Positions 21,020-35,865 of a stretch of DNA of 64,000 nt are shown piece by piece. Within the stretch, counting starts at the first letter, position 1. Each line of letters starts with the position of its first letter. The notes beneath the pieces are model-generated. The model had not been told where the DNA came from. It did no database searches and saw nothing but the letters and a program-made list of their open reading frames with translations. The DNA is from Rikenella microfusus DSM 15922 (GTDB taxonomy: Bacteria > Bacteroidota > Bacteroidia > Bacteroidales > Rikenellaceae): positions 1,240,001 to 1,304,000 of the forward strand of contig NZ_KE386488.1 of NCBI RefSeq assembly GCF_000427365.1. The letters run 5' to 3'. A program made the translations under genes and the position numbers.

Positions 21020-21027
21020 TACCTTTG
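21020..21027 (+). promoter_or_regulatory. candidate -7 box of the arginine cluster
   Basis: TACCTTTG matches TAnnTTTG exactly. Transcription from about 21034 would give a 230-nt leader before the GNAT gene, containing the leader peptide and RNA stems. The -33 element is not clear. Confidence 0.5.
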
Positions 21028-21064
21028 CCTCGTTATTTCTGAAAACCGGAAACCGAGGACGATC

Positions 21065-21103
21065 GTGAAAACCTGCGCACTCTCTCTGCGACGACGACGA
21101 TAG
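21065..21103 (+). CDS. putative arginine leader peptide (12 residues, four Arg codons in a row)
   Basis: GTG-started 12-codon ORF encoding MKTCALSLRRRR and ending in TAG. The last four codons are all CGA (21089-21100). AGGA lies 6 bases before the start. It sits about 30 nt into the predicted transcript and 160 bases before the first arginine-cluster gene. The following RNA can form alternative stems (see 21073-21162). This is the layout of an amino-acid attenuator. The four identical arginine codons in front of arginine biosynthesis genes make chance unlikely, but no expression evidence is available. Confidence 0.6.
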   Translation: MKTCALSLRRRR

Positions 21104-21162
21104 TTCCCCTGCGCAGTTCCCGCCCGCGTTCGCTTCGGGACGGGACGAGATGACAGAGGAAC
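21073..21162 (+). promoter_or_regulatory. mutually exclusive RNA stems downstream of the arginine leader
   Basis: CTGCGCA at 21073-21079, inside the leader ORF, can pair with TGCGCAG at 21110-21116. The overlapping GTTCCCCTG (21103-21111) can instead pair with CAGAGGAAC (21154-21162, 8 of 9 bp), enclosing a very strong hairpin CCCGCCCG/CGGGACGGG (21119-21144, one bulge). A ribosome stalled on the CGA codons would block both outer stems. No U-tract follows, so a simple intrinsic terminator is not evident; control may be rho-dependent or translational. Confidence 0.5.
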
Positions 21163-21264
21163 GCCCTCATTGTGTGTCTGTCATACCTTTTGATCAACGG
21201 GACGGACACTCCCTCTTTCAACCGGAAAATAACCGTTACATTCTACATAAATCTTGCACACAAG

Positions 21265-21861
21265 ATGACAATCGATGATTTTGATGTCCTCGTGGCAACC
21301 GAAGAGCATACCAAATTCGCTCAGGAGATCTGCACCGAGATGGCCGAATCCGCCAAAGCGCGCGGTACCGGCATCGCCAAACGTACCCCGGAGTACGTAG
21401 CGTCCAAAATGCGTGAAGGGAAAGCCGTCGTGGCGTTCCATAAAGACGGACGCTGGGCCGGATTCAGCTACATCGAAAGCTGGGGACATAACTCCTATGT
21501 AGCCAATTCGGGACTTATCATCAATCCGGAGTTCCGTAAGCTGGGGCTGGCCAAAGCGATCAAAACCAAAACTTTCTTCCTCTCGCTGGTCAAATTCCCG
21601 GGGGCCAAGCTGTTCGGCCTGACTACCGGTCTCCCGGTTATGAAGATCAATAACGAGCTGGGCTACCGCCCTGTGATTTTCTCGGAACTGACGGATGACG
21701 AAACGTTCTGGAAGGGGTGCGAAAGTTGTGTCAATTTCGGTATCCTGCAAAGCAAACAACACAAAAACTGTCTCTGCACGGCGATGCTGTTCGACCCGGC
21801 GGTGGACACGATCCGCGTACCGTGGCCGACTGACTTACCCAAACCCGAAAACCTTAAATAA
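21265..21861 (+). CDS. GNAT acetyltransferase at the head of the arginine cluster
   Basis: A 198-residue GNAT-fold protein. AGFSYIESWGHNSYVANSGL and INPEFRKLGLAKAIKT (about residues 72-110) are the acyl-CoA binding beta4-motif A region. In Bacteroidota a similar protein precedes argG-argC-argD, and by position it is a candidate N-acyl(acetyl or succinyl)-glutamate synthase. This is inference from neighbours. ATG 21265 is used; an in-frame GTG at 21172 would add 31 poorly structured residues. The stop TAA is also the first three bases of the family A repeat that follows. Confidence 0.75.
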   Translation: MTIDDFDVLVATEEHTKFAQEICTEMAESAKARGTGIAKRTPEYVASKMREGKAVVAFHKDGRWAGFSYIESWGHNSYVANSGLIINPEFRKLGLAKAIKTKTFFLSLVKFPGAKLFGLTTGLPVMKINNELGYRPVIFSELTDDETFWKGCESCVNFGILQSKQHKNCLCTAMLFDPAVDTIRVPWPTDLPKPENLK

Positions 21862-22184
21862 CCGTTCGTTGATTTGTACGTATAGGGTAGAGTCCACTGT
21901 TCTTTCTTTGAAAAGAAAGAACCAAAGAAACTTTCGAGCAGGTTTGCGGTTCCTCAGTCTGTCGATACCCCTTTGCATTGTGTTTTTTGTTTTGTAAGAA
22001 CAGGGGGCTGTCCTTTGTATTTGCATGAATGCCCCCTGTTCTTACAAAACAAATCGTCAAAGGATAAGTCATCCGCCAGGCTCAGGAGATGCGCAAGCAT
22101 CTCAAAAAGTTTTTCTGGTTCTCTTTGTGAACAAAGAGAACAGTCGCCTCAAACCTGAACAGTACAAATAAACGAACCATTTAA
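21859..22184 (+). repeat. family A element, copy 1 (between GNAT gene and argG)
   Basis: A 326-bp element filling the whole gap. Its ends are near-inverted (TAACCGTTCG... and ...CGAACCATTTAA). The left arm has a 24-nt hairpin (GTTCTTTCTTT-GA-AAAGAAAGAAC). The right arm has GTTCTCTTTGT-GA-ACAAAGAGAAC plus GAGATGC-GCAA-GCATCTC. The centre (21989-22008 with 22031-22050) is a perfect 20-bp stem. It ends 14 bases before the argG ATG. It has no coding capacity worth calling. Confidence 0.85.
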
Positions 22185-22198
22185 AAAGATTTAGCTTT

Positions 22199-23413
22199 AT
22201 GGAAAAGAAGAAAGTAGTGCTTGCGTTCAGCGGCGGTTTGGATACCTCCTATTGCGCCATTTATCTGGCCAAAGAGAAAGGGCTTGAAGTTTATGCAGCC
22301 CTGGCCGACACCGGCGGATTTTCGGCCGAAGAACTGGATAAAATCGAAAAGCGGGCCTTGGCACTCGGCGTAAAAAGCTATGTGCGTCTCGACGTGTCGC
22401 ACACCTATTACGAACAGAGCATCAAATACATGATTTTCGGCAACGTGCTCAAGAACAGCACCTACCCGATTTCGGTCAGCTCGGAACGCATCTCGCAGGC
22501 CACGGCTATCGCCAGATATGCCAAAGAGATCGGTGCGGATTATCTTTGCCACGGCTCGACCGGAGCCGGCAACGACCAGGTACGGTTCGACATGATCTTC
22601 AACATCATCGCGCCGGAGATCGAAGTGATCGCGCTGATCCGCGAAAAACGCCTCTCGCGTGAAGAAGAAATCGAATACCTGCGTTCGCACGGGGTCGATT
22701 TCGACTTCAAGAAAGCCGAATATTCGATCAACCAGGGTATCTGGGGCACGTCGGTCGGCGGCAAAGAGACGCTGACTTCGAGCGAAACGCTTCCCGAAGA
22801 GGCCTATCCTTCGCAGTTGAAAGTGGCCCACGACGCCCCGGCGAAACGTATCGCGCTGACTTTCGAGAAGGGCGAGCTGGTCGGCATCGACGGCAAACAT
22901 TACGACGACAAGGTCAAAGCCATTCAGGATTTGCAGCATATCGCCGCGCCTTACGCGATCGGGCGCGACATGCACGTGGGCGACACGATTATCGGAATCA
23001 AGGGGCGCGTGGGCTTCGAGGCGGCGGCGCCGATGATTATCATCAAAGCGCACCACATGCTCGAAAAACATGTGTTGGCCAAATGGCAACTGTTCTGGAA
23101 AGACCAGCTTTCGGCGTTCTACGGCAACTACCTGCACGAAGGCCAGTATTATGATCCGGTGATGCGCGACATGGAGGCGTTCCTCGAAAGTTCGCAGCGC
23201 AATGTGACGGGAGAGGTGTTCGTGGACCTGCTGCCTTACCGTTTCGTGGTGGTGGGGATCGAGTCGAAACACGACCTGATGTCGAACAAGTTCGGCGCTT
23301 ACGGCGAAACCATGAGCAACTGGACGTCGGACGACGTGAAGGGATTCGGACGTATCTTCGGCAACCAGAATGCCATCTATTATGCGGTCAATCCCGACGA
23401 AATCGAAAAATAA
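22199..23413 (+). CDS. argG: argininosuccinate synthase
   Basis: A 404-residue enzyme that joins citrulline and aspartate with ATP. The PP-loop is LAFSGGLDTSYCAIYL (residues 8-23). HGSTGAGNDQVRFDM (near 120) and YSINQGIWGTSVGGKE (near 177) are the substrate-binding blocks. It is the second gene of the arginine cluster and is flanked on both sides by family A elements in opposite orientation; its TAA stop directly abuts the second one. Confidence 0.96.
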   Translation: MEKKKVVLAFSGGLDTSYCAIYLAKEKGLEVYAALADTGGFSAEELDKIEKRALALGVKSYVRLDVSHTYYEQSIKYMIFGNVLKNSTYPISVSSERISQATAIARYAKEIGADYLCHGSTGAGNDQVRFDMIFNIIAPEIEVIALIREKRLSREEEIEYLRSHGVDFDFKKAEYSINQGIWGTSVGGKETLTSSETLPEEAYPSQLKVAHDAPAKRIALTFEKGELVGIDGKHYDDKVKAIQDLQHIAAPYAIGRDMHVGDTIIGIKGRVGFEAAAPMIIIKAHHMLEKHVLAKWQLFWKDQLSAFYGNYLHEGQYYDPVMRDMEAFLESSQRNVTGEVFVDLLPYRFVVVGIESKHDLMSNKFGAYGETMSNWTSDDVKGFGRIFGNQNAIYYAVNPDEIEK

Positions 23414-23740
23414 TTAACCGTTCGTTTATTTGTACTGTTCAGGTTTGAGGTGACTGTTCTCTTTGTGAACAAAGAGAACCAGAAAAACTTTTTGAGATGC
23501 TTGCGCATCTCCTGGGCCTGGCGGATAACCTTTCCTTTGAAAACTTGTTCTGTAACGGATAGGGGGCTATTAATGTCGTTACCCGATGCCCCCTATCCGT
23601 TACAGAACAATGACGTCTGCAAGAAAAGGTTTTCGACAAACTGAGACGTTGCAAACCTGCTCGAAAGTTTCTTTGGTTCTTTCTTTTCAAAGAAAGAACA
23701 GTGGACTCTACCCTCTACGTACAGATAAACGAACGATTAA
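23414..23740 (-). repeat. family A element, copy 2 (between argG and argC)
   Basis: A 327-bp element in the reverse orientation of copy 1. Its left arm is the reverse complement of copy 1's right arm, including the GAGATGC stem. Its right arm matches copy 1's left arm (CTGCTCGAAAGTTTCTTTGG). The central stem (23545-23567 with 23588-23610) is a perfect 23 bp of different sequence from copy 1 (TGTAACGGATAGGGGGC versus TGTAAGAACAGGGGGC). It ends 15 bases before the argC ATG. Confidence 0.85.
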
Positions 23741-23755
23741 ATACTTATTGCGATT

Positions 23756-24757
23756 ATGAGCGAAACGAAGAAGATCAGAGTCGGGATTATCGGCGGCGCC
23801 GGATACACCGGCGGTGAAGCCGTCCGGCTGCTTATCAACCACCCCGACGTCGAGCTGGTTTATGTCCACAGCAACTCCAACGGCGGCAACCTCGTCAGCG
23901 ACGTTCATGCCGATTTGCTGGGCGATACCGACATGCGTTTCACCGACACAGCCATCGAGCAACTGCCCAAAGTGGACGTGATGTTCCTCTGCGTAGGACA
24001 CGGCGACGCTCGGAAATTCCTCGAAGCGAACAAAATCGCCGAAGACGTGCGTATCATCGACCTGTCGCAGGATTTCCGGATCGCGCCGGACACCGCCATC
24101 GACGGGCACGCATTCGTTTACGGTCTGCCGGAGCAGAACCGGGAAGCCATCAAAGAGGCGAAAAATATCGCCAATCCCGGTTGTTTCGCCACCTGCCTGC
24201 AACTCGCCCTGTTGCCGTTGGCCGCCAACGGGCTGGTACGCGGCGACGTGCACATCTCGGCGACCACCGGCTCGACCGGGGCCGGTCAGAAACTGGCCCC
24301 CACTTCGCATTTTTCGTGGCGGGCGAACAATCTATCCACCTACAAAGTATTCGAACATCAGCACCTGCGCGAAGTCAGGCAAATGATCCGTTCGTTCGAA
24401 CCTTCGTTCGCCGGAGCCGTGAATTTCATTCCTTACCGGGGAGACTTCACGCGCGGTATCATCGCTTCGGTCTACACGGACTTCGCGGGTACGCAGGAAG
24501 AGGCGCAGCGCATTTACAAAGAGTTCTACGCATCGGCGGCGTTCACGCACGTGAGCGACAAGCCGATTTCGCTGAAACAGGTGGTCAATACGAACAAATG
24601 TCTGGTACATCTGACGGTGCACGAGGGCAAACTGCTGGTCATGTCTGTTATCGATAACCTCCTGAAAGGGGCGTCGGGGCAGGCGGTCCAGAACATGAAC
24701 CTGATGTGCGGCCTGCCGGAAACGGCCGGCCTGCGACTCAAACCGCTGGCATTTTAA
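23756..24757 (+). CDS. argC: N-acyl-gamma-glutamyl-phosphate reductase
   Basis: A 333-residue NADPH-dependent reductase of arginine synthesis. It has an N-terminal Rossmann motif RVGIIGGAGYTGGEAVRLL (residues 8-26), the active cysteine in NPGCFATCLQLALLPL (near 141-144) and HFSWRANNLSTYKVFEHQH with the catalytic histidine region. The substrate may be the N-succinyl form, as in Bacteroides; this cannot be told from sequence. Its TAA stop coincides with the TTAA end of a degenerate family A element. Confidence 0.95.
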   Translation: MSETKKIRVGIIGGAGYTGGEAVRLLINHPDVELVYVHSNSNGGNLVSDVHADLLGDTDMRFTDTAIEQLPKVDVMFLCVGHGDARKFLEANKIAEDVRIIDLSQDFRIAPDTAIDGHAFVYGLPEQNREAIKEAKNIANPGCFATCLQLALLPLAANGLVRGDVHISATTGSTGAGQKLAPTSHFSWRANNLSTYKVFEHQHLREVRQMIRSFEPSFAGAVNFIPYRGDFTRGIIASVYTDFAGTQEEAQRIYKEFYASAAFTHVSDKPISLKQVVNTNKCLVHLTVHEGKLLVMSVIDNLLKGASGQAVQNMNLMCGLPETAGLRLKPLAF

Positions 24758-25149: not shown

Positions 25150-26283
25150 ATGAAATTATTCGACGTATATCCCCTTTACGACATCGAAATCGTAAAAGCC
25201 CTCGGTTCCAGCGTTTGGGACGAGAAAGGGCAGGAATATCTGGATTTTTACGGCGGCCACGCCGTGATTTCCATCGGGCATACCCACCCCCATTACGTAG
25301 AACGTCTCACCGACCAGATACGGAAAGTGGGATTTTACTCGAACTCCGTGAAGATCAGCGCCCAGAAAGAACTCGCCGACAAAATAGGCAAACTTTCCGG
25401 CCACGACGACTACCAGTTCTTCATGTGCAACTCCGGCGCCGAAGCCAACGAGAACGCCATGAAACTCGCCTCGTTCCACACCGGGCGGAAAAAGATCGTC
25501 GCCATGCACGGCTCCTTCCACGGACGCACCTCGCTCGCCGTCGCCGCTACCGATAATCCCAATATCGTGGCTCCTGTGAACCGGACCGACAACGTGATCT
25601 TCGTGACCCTGAACGACGAGCAGGAACTCGAAAACCTCTTCGCCAAAGAAGGGGACGAAATCGCCGCCGTAATCCTCGAAGGCATACAGGGCGTCGGCGG
25701 CATCCGGATCGCTTCCGACGACTACCTGCGGAGAATACGGACACTGTGCGACAAGTACGGCGCCGTCTATATCGCCGACAGCGTGCAGTGCGGATGCGGG
25801 CGGACCGGCAAATATTACTCCCACGACTGGGCCGGCATGAATGCCGACATCTATACCATGGCCAAAGGGATCGGCAACGGATTCCCTGTAGCCGCGATCT
25901 CCATCGCGCCGCATATCGCACCGAAATACGGCATGCTGGGCACCACCTTCGGCGGCAACCACCTCGCCTGCGCCGCCGCCCTGGCCGTCGCCGAAGTGAT
26001 GGCCGAAGACAACCTGGTGGAACACGCCCGGCAAACCGGCGACTATCTGCTCGCCGAACTCCGTAAACTGCCGAAAATCAAGGAGGTTCGGGGGAAAGGG
26101 CTGATGATCGGCGTCGAACTGAACGAAGAGAGCGCCCCGTTCCGCAAAAAACTGCTGTTCGACGAGCACATCTTCGTCGGCTCTTCGTCCGACAAAAACA
26201 CCTTCCGGCTGCTCCCCGCGCTGAACATCAGCCGCGAGAACTGCGACAAACTGCTGGCATCACTCCGCAAGCTGCTGGCTTAA
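25150..26283 (+). CDS. argD: N-acylornithine aminotransferase (acetyl- or succinyl-)
   Basis: A 377-residue class III PLP aminotransferase. It has FYGGHAVISIGHTHPHYV, the glycine-rich FMCNSGAEANENAMKLA (about residues 94-110), ADSVQCGCGRTGKY and the PLP lysine in YTMAKGIGNGFPVAAI (near 242). Its placement after argG and argC supports arginine synthesis. The 9-base gap to folK indicates co-transcription with it. Confidence 0.93.
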   Translation: MKLFDVYPLYDIEIVKALGSSVWDEKGQEYLDFYGGHAVISIGHTHPHYVERLTDQIRKVGFYSNSVKISAQKELADKIGKLSGHDDYQFFMCNSGAEANENAMKLASFHTGRKKIVAMHGSFHGRTSLAVAATDNPNIVAPVNRTDNVIFVTLNDEQELENLFAKEGDEIAAVILEGIQGVGGIRIASDDYLRRIRTLCDKYGAVYIADSVQCGCGRTGKYYSHDWAGMNADIYTMAKGIGNGFPVAAISIAPHIAPKYGMLGTTFGGNHLACAAALAVAEVMAEDNLVEHARQTGDYLLAELRKLPKIKEVRGKGLMIGVELNEESAPFRKKLLFDEHIFVGSSSDKNTFRLLPALNISRENCDKLLASLRKLLA

Positions 26284-35536: not shown

Positions 35537-35865
35537 TTAACCGTTCGTTTATTTGTACATTGATGTTTGAGGCAACCGTTCTTTCTTTTCAAAGAAAGAA
35601 CCAAAGAAACTTTCGAGCAGCTGTGTGCGCCTCAGGCTCCGCAGTCCTTTGGCATTGAAATTTTCTTTGTCTTGTAATCGCCGGGGCTATATCGCATGTT
35701 TATACTTAATTAGCCCCGGCGATTACAAGACAAAACAATCAAAGACAACAGGTACCCGGCAGGCTCAGGAGATGCGCCAGCATCTCAAAAAGTTTTTCTG
35801 GTTCTCTTTGTTCACAAAGAGAACAGTACCCTCGAACCTGAAAGTACGGATAAACGAACGATTAA
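35537..35865 (+). repeat. family A element, copy 3 (between divergent genes)
   Basis: A 329-bp element in the same orientation as copy 1, with ends TTAACCGTTCGTTTATTTG and ...CGAACGATTAA. The arm hairpins are conserved, but both centres are TC where copy 1 has GA. The central stem (35666-35689 with 35711-35734) is a perfect 24 bp, TGTAATCGCCGGGGC in its core, unlike copies 1 and 2. It ends 19 bases before the next ATG. Confidence 0.85.

Follow-up and report, generated by a model that had tools for sequence, protein, structure and literature searches.

A conserved leader ORF ending in arginine codons precedes the arginine gene cluster of Rikenella microfusus and has counterparts across Bacteroidota

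Introduction

Bacterial arginine biosynthesis is known chiefly for its control by ArgR. The stretch of DNA analysed here, 64,000 nt from Rikenella microfusus DSM 15922 (contig NZ_KE386488.1, positions 1,240,001–1,304,000; hereafter the window, with coordinates counted from its first base), carries the arginine gene cluster GNAT-argG-argC-argD. A first-pass annotation had pointed out that the window contains no argR, and the absence proves to be wider, as no match to ArgR (PF01316) was found in the entire R. microfusus genome, nor in most Rikenellaceae, while control genomes did match. How, then, does this cluster sense arginine? The same annotation had proposed an arginine attenuator, in which a short leader open reading frame (ORF) with a run of arginine codons couples arginine supply to expression of the cluster. 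Here we report, from comparison of the locus with its relatives, that the region is probably a cis-acting, translation-based arginine sensor of GNAT-argG-argC-argD.

Results

A short ORF ending in four CGA codons precedes the cluster

The leader ORF is located on the plus strand at 21065–21103, where it had first been noticed. It starts with GTG, encodes MKTCALSLRRRR in 12 codons and ends with TAG (GTG AAA ACC TGC GCA CTC TCT CTG CGA CGA CGA CGA TAG), and the sequence GAGGA, its probable ribosome-binding site (RBS), lies ahead of it at 21055–21059. The last four sense codons, at 21089–21100, are successive CGA arginine codons, the candidate control codons. As described before, the ORF sits between a promoter box and the GNAT gene. 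Specifically, a −7 box of the Bacteroidota type, TACCTTTG, read from the sequence as the leader promoter, is positioned at 21020–21027 (plus strand), from which transcription would start at approximately 21033–21036, and the leader stop codon is separated from the GNAT ATG (21265) by 161 nt. A TAnnTTTG-like box is present in most Rikenellaceae upstream regions that carry a leader.

Dinucleotide shuffling of the intergenic region produced an RRRR-stop word in 21 of 20,000 trials. Six such words exist on the two strands of the window, among which the four-CGA version occurs at the leader alone, and CGA-CGA-CGA-stop occurs a single time. The 18-mer CTSCGACGACGACGATAG has one exact match in the genome. 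One further match, with two mismatches, was considered as a second leader and rejected; it is on the strand opposite an apparent dihydrofolate reductase gene (a label given by reading the sequence by eye) and was judged to be due to chance. The leader is the sole good RRRR-stop leader in the genome.

The arginine run is conserved as a translated sequence

The first-pass annotation had suggested aligning the region upstream of GNAT-argG in relatives, and the alignment bears out its expectation on both counts: a short ORF ending in arginine codons is conserved within the genus, across further Rikenellaceae genera and broadly through the Bacteroidota; its arginine codons change synonymously, and the hairpin behind the stop codon shows compensatory changes. 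In the same-genus set, which comprises the seven genomes holding the locus (the named ones being Rikenella and Millionella), the ORF is retained in 7/7 and the residues ALSLRRRR are identical throughout, while codons 2–4 differ. All codon changes within ALSLRRRR are synonymous (CTC/CTT, TCT/TCA and CTG/TTG), as is typical of translated peptides. The RBS reads GAGGA in 6/7 sequences and GAGAA in the seventh (L030).

Seven more Rikenellaceae genera have a longer upstream ORF (uORF) that ends at the equivalent site, always with TAG, and that closes with ...RIERRRR, ...RVERRRR, ...TERRRR, ...SIRRRR or similar residues. Their arginine codons are CGA together with CGT, CGG and AGA, and an arginine run with synonymous codons is thus found in eight Rikenellaceae genera in all. 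These synonymous changes, along with the purely synonymous changes in ALSL, speak against the alternative that the ORF is a chance reading and that CGACGACGACGATAG is a nucleotide element such as a protein-binding site, an idea that draws on the near fixation of CGACGACGA in Rikenellaceae although CGA is rare. As arginine-tailed ORFs of differing nucleotide sequence also recur elsewhere in the phylum, we consider such an element very improbable.

Arginine-tailed leaders are widespread in Bacteroidota

The phylum sample comprised 48 loci outside Rikenellaceae (Sphingobacteriales, Chitinophagales, Flavobacteriales, Cytophagales and others), and a locus was scored positive if it had an ATG uORF at the expected place with at least three arginines among the last ten residues. 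An arginine-tailed uORF was found at 31/48 GNAT loci, versus approximately 10/118 control intergenic upstream regions from the same loci. The arginine-tailed control regions that were inspected precede unrelated genes, except for one mis-started GNAT; with the latter moved out of the controls, the Fisher p value is 1e-13, the loci being treated as independent although they share ancestry. The enrichment at uORF tails is limited to arginine, and other residues show no such excess. A class-wide draw of 88 GNAT loci gave 43 that satisfy the criterion when it is applied mechanically, with some doubtful cases among them.

The tails differ by family (...SRRRVFIPRV, ...RFRRPILPRA, ...VRPVFYIRR, ...PVRRRRYFFRV and ...TSRVSRVRA), and what the families have in common is arginine, not one peptide. 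In three loci of another family of the order (L096, L097 and L098, genus g115), the leader before GNAT ends in SLNRRESRR* with CGA and CGG codons, and ArgR is absent from these genomes. Another locus, L264, has tandem candidate arginine-rich uORFs before GNAT, MHTSNKTNQISLRRRRPMRRR and one ending in ISVRRFFPRP.

The leaders favour a rare arginine codon

CGA accounts for 11% of the arginine codons of the window genes, from which the background usage was computed, versus 69/76 in the Rikenellaceae runs; phylum-wide, it accounts for 33% in leaders versus 6% in the background. The tRNA-Arg anticodons found in the genome are ACG (two), CCG, UCU and CCU. A tRNA-Arg with anticodon UCG was not found among the tRNAs checked, the tRNA genes of 81–89 nt being mostly untyped, and CGA would therefore be read through inosine wobble, that is, slowly. 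In an assay with a his leader, pairs of arginine codons that include CGA give strong stalling (PMC4046918). Slow codons fit a sensor that needs to respond early.

The retention of rare synonymous CGA codons also bears on the alternative of nascent-peptide arrest, in which the polybasic tail stalls the ribosome and arginine, or another small molecule, is sensed through the peptide instead of through tRNA charging, as with the fungal arginine attenuator peptide or in arrest of the macrolide type. Such codons would be needless for a mechanism acting through the peptide only, and the leaders of other families share little except arginine, which points to codons more than to any particular peptide. 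In spite of the invariance of ALSLRRRR in the genus and the recurrence of (V/I)ERRRR in other genera, both of which a peptide sensor would explain, we regard this alternative as unlikely.

A conserved hairpin abuts the leader stop codon

Two incompatible folds had been drawn for the RNA of this region, and although both can be drawn, only one is kept in relatives. The fold pairing 21073–21079 with 21110–21116 is conserved in 0/6 relatives and was rejected, whereas the pairing of 21103–21111 with 21154–21162 is retained and forms the outer arms of a hairpin that abuts the stop codon (21103–21162, plus strand), with an inner stem at approximately 21116–21126/21136–21146. The hairpin is present in 7/7 sequences of the genus. 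Its outer arms are near-invariant, while the inner stem varies in sequence, with changes on both sides and pairing partly retained. The 12 Rikenellaceae sequences outside the genus have an equivalent, shorter hairpin, UUUCGRY-(5 nt)-RYCGGAA, in which 96.4% of the cells are paired and two pairs show changes on both sides (seven such cells). This number of both-side cells was reached by 0/500 shuffles, and the pairing clearly exceeds that of slid registers. The folding energy directly after the stop codon likewise beats shuffles in Rikenellaceae and in other Bacteroidota.

In the Sphingobacteriales, Chitinophagales, Flavobacteriales and other groups, RNAalifold found little or no consensus structure, and hairpins enclosing the stop codon are visible by eye in several. 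Searches against Rfam 15 gave no family above the gathering score in the leader or in 12 relatives, and the matches at a permissive threshold were dismissed as chance. Two side observations concern RNA structure elsewhere. In Rikenellaceae leaders, folding also beats shuffles 40–90 nt ahead of the stop-codon end (mean z −1.28). In eight Sphingobacteriales loci (L148, L151, L152, L158, L160, L169, L177 and L188), a small hairpin (for example, TCCGT...ACGGA) followed by TTTT lies immediately before the GNAT ATG, and the leader stop codon is often within the loop of another hairpin.

The hairpin begins 0–4 nt past the stop codon and approximately 15–18 nt from the first base of the first arginine codon. 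A ribosome footprint usually reaches approximately 12–13 nt past the first A-site base. By this geometry, a ribosome on the first or second arginine codon would leave the hairpin closed, while a ribosome at the stop codon would cover its 5′ arm. The leader is thus proposed to work as follows. The short ORF would be translated, and under a shortage of charged tRNA-Arg the ribosome would wait on the arginine run just ahead of the stop codon; its leading edge would fall short of the hairpin, the hairpin would stay folded, and the operon would be expressed. With ample arginine, the ribosome would proceed to the stop codon and open the 5′ hairpin arm, which would lower expression. The final step might consist of the loss of an antiterminator, of termination by Rho once the ribosome has been released at the stop codon, or of altered RNA stability or translation. 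The comparative data establish an arginine-run ORF with coding-type conservation and a covarying hairpin, and sensing of arginine by translation is well supported by them; from these features we infer that ribosomes stall, which way the control runs and that the hairpin is opened.

Leader and ArgR seldom occur together

ArgR is absent from 61/62 leader-positive genomes tested, and the sole exception is a borderline match in a genome whose leader ORF is doubtful. Among leader-negative genomes, ArgR is present in 8/37 (Fisher p = 0.0015, ignoring ancestry and with groups pooled from several searches). In several of the genomes with ArgR, argR lies on the same strand immediately upstream of GNAT, at the place of the leader.

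Evidence against the sensor and alternatives for its output

Several observations weigh against the proposed sensor. The contrast between leader and ArgR is partly phylogenetic, as ArgR is mostly limited to Bacteroidales. Many Rikenellaceae genera, including the largest in the sample, have no leader, which is therefore dispensable and a patchy trait, through loss or gain; in leaderless genera inspected by eye, a promoter-like box is often near the GNAT start, so that the 5′ untranslated region is short. Nor is the system specific to Alistipes and Rikenellaceae. In addition, a search for a terminator competing with the hairpin gave no support for one. A perfect 8-bp helix missed in the first-pass annotation, 21150–21157/21177–21184 (AUGACAGA/UCUGUCAU; plus strand), is followed by ACCUUUU and makes a weak terminator-like candidate. 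Across the leaders, this competing helix is no better than dinucleotide shuffles (combined Fisher p of 0.92 in the genus and 0.32 in the rest) and is therefore tentative. Lastly, there is no conserved intrinsic terminator: a hairpin followed by U residues is found in 20/89 leaders versus 6.7 expected, an excess from which some lineages may use such sites, the window leader apparently not. No terminator-like site was found on the plus strand at the window leader, and no intrinsic terminator with a U tract before GNAT.

These results bear on whether the output is transcription attenuation of the trp/his type, with the post-stop hairpin as antiterminator and 21150–21157/21177–21184, or a counterpart, as terminator. 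The two helices share 21154–21157 and are mutually exclusive, the geometry is compatible, and certain other leaders have suggestive elements (AGAGGGAGCCGCUCCUCU followed by a U tract in L027, and competing hairpins in L068 and L049). Given that the competing helix is neither conserved nor above shuffles and that the window leader has no terminator-like site on its strand, we consider this version rather unlikely. As no terminator/antiterminator switch could be demonstrated, the comparison does not support calling the leader an attenuator as strictly defined for trp/his; what stands of the original proposal is the conserved arginine-codon leader, along with its caution over the output step. Alternatively, a finished leader may expose or remodel the RNA after the stop codon for Rho or an RNase, which stalling at the arginine codons would prevent. 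The rarity of intrinsic terminators among the leaders, the 67–208 nt of untranslated RNA that follow the leader stop codon in Rikenellaceae before GNAT begins, and the precedents of speF (Rho and RNase G; PMC6386406) and mgtL of Salmonella are in line with this output, which we put forward as a possibility, tentatively and short of even likelihood.

Genes of the cluster

The GNAT-family gene (21265–21861, plus strand) is the first of the cluster. Its protein has no Pfam or NCBIfam match at 0.001, and its function was assigned by synteny with the BT3761-BT3760 pair of Bacteroides thetaiotaomicron, in which BT3761, its orthologue by position, is a probable N-succinylglutamate synthase (PMC7311316). 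The product is thus probably an N-succinylglutamate/N-acetylglutamate synthase, and since GNAT adjoins argG as in that pair, the leader precedes the probable first step of the pathway. It is followed on the same strand by argG, argininosuccinate synthase (22199–23413; PF00764 and PF20979, with NCBIfam argininosuccinate synthase models under cut-off), argC, N-acyl-gamma-glutamyl-phosphate reductase (23756–24757; TIGR01850 over cut-off), and argD, acetyl/succinylornithine transaminase (25150–26283; PF00202, with TIGR00707 as best NCBIfam match, under its cut-off). An interspersed repeat, AAAGAACCAAAGAAACTTTCGAG, has 28 genome copies at no more than one mismatch, 26 of them exact. Three lie in the window, at 21916–21938 (plus), 23660–23682 (minus) and 35595–35617 (plus), and two of these sit, oppositely oriented, in the GNAT/argG and argG/argC gaps.

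Discussion

The leader resembles the trp, his and leu attenuators of Enterobacteria: a short ORF repeats codons for the amino acid that the pathway makes, it lies directly before the biosynthetic operon, and RNA structure follows it. The leader differs in pathway (arginine), in phylum (Bacteroidota), and in the lack of a conserved intrinsic terminator or a demonstrable antiterminator/terminator switch. In the fungal arginine attenuator peptide (the arg-2/CPA1 uORF), which also controls early genes of the arginine pathway, arginine works together with a nascent peptide that is conserved, whereas the Bacteroidota leaders conserve only arginine codons across families. Closer in principle is the Salmonella speF leader orf34, in which two successive arginine codons sense arginine by ribosome pausing (PMC6386406). 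That leader, however, controls ornithine decarboxylase, encodes a peptide of the gammaproteobacterial DUF2618 type, whose core reads HIRRT, and acts through Rho and RNase G. The HIRRT core was not seen on reading the leader peptides described here (no DUF2618 profile search was made), and the downstream gene differs. In Staphylococcus aureus, the uORF rbfL likewise has a GTG start and rare arginine codons and serves as an arginine sensor (PMC13009471), but there stalling covers the RBS of a biofilm regulator and represses it, and the target is not a biosynthetic operon. Within the phylum, leader-peptide attenuation has been proposed for amino-acid operons of Flavobacterium psychrophilum from transcriptome data (PMC9723704); the main text of that study names no arginine operon or arginine-codon leader, and an arginine listing in its supplements is possible.

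No leader-peptide control of arginine biosynthesis was found in the full-text literature searched, whose coverage leaves subscription journals mostly outside, in agreement with the initial impression that an arginine attenuator is undescribed in Bacteroidota. We judge the arginine-codon leader to be a real, conserved system. Its principle is known, and its use in this pathway and phylum is new within the literature searched. A broader version, in which an ancient, phylum-wide arginine leader system with no intrinsic terminator and with a stop-codon hairpin, kept folded by stalling and opened once translation is complete, replaces ArgR at many Bacteroidota arginine operons, is plausible but falls a little short of probable. 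If it is true, a large phylum that dominates the gut and other environments would often sense arginine at the ribosome, through poorly read codons. The leader would be a ready reporter of ribosome stalling in Bacteroidota, where attenuation has been little studied, and two regulatory principles, ArgR or a leader ORF, would occupy a single site ahead of one and the same operon.
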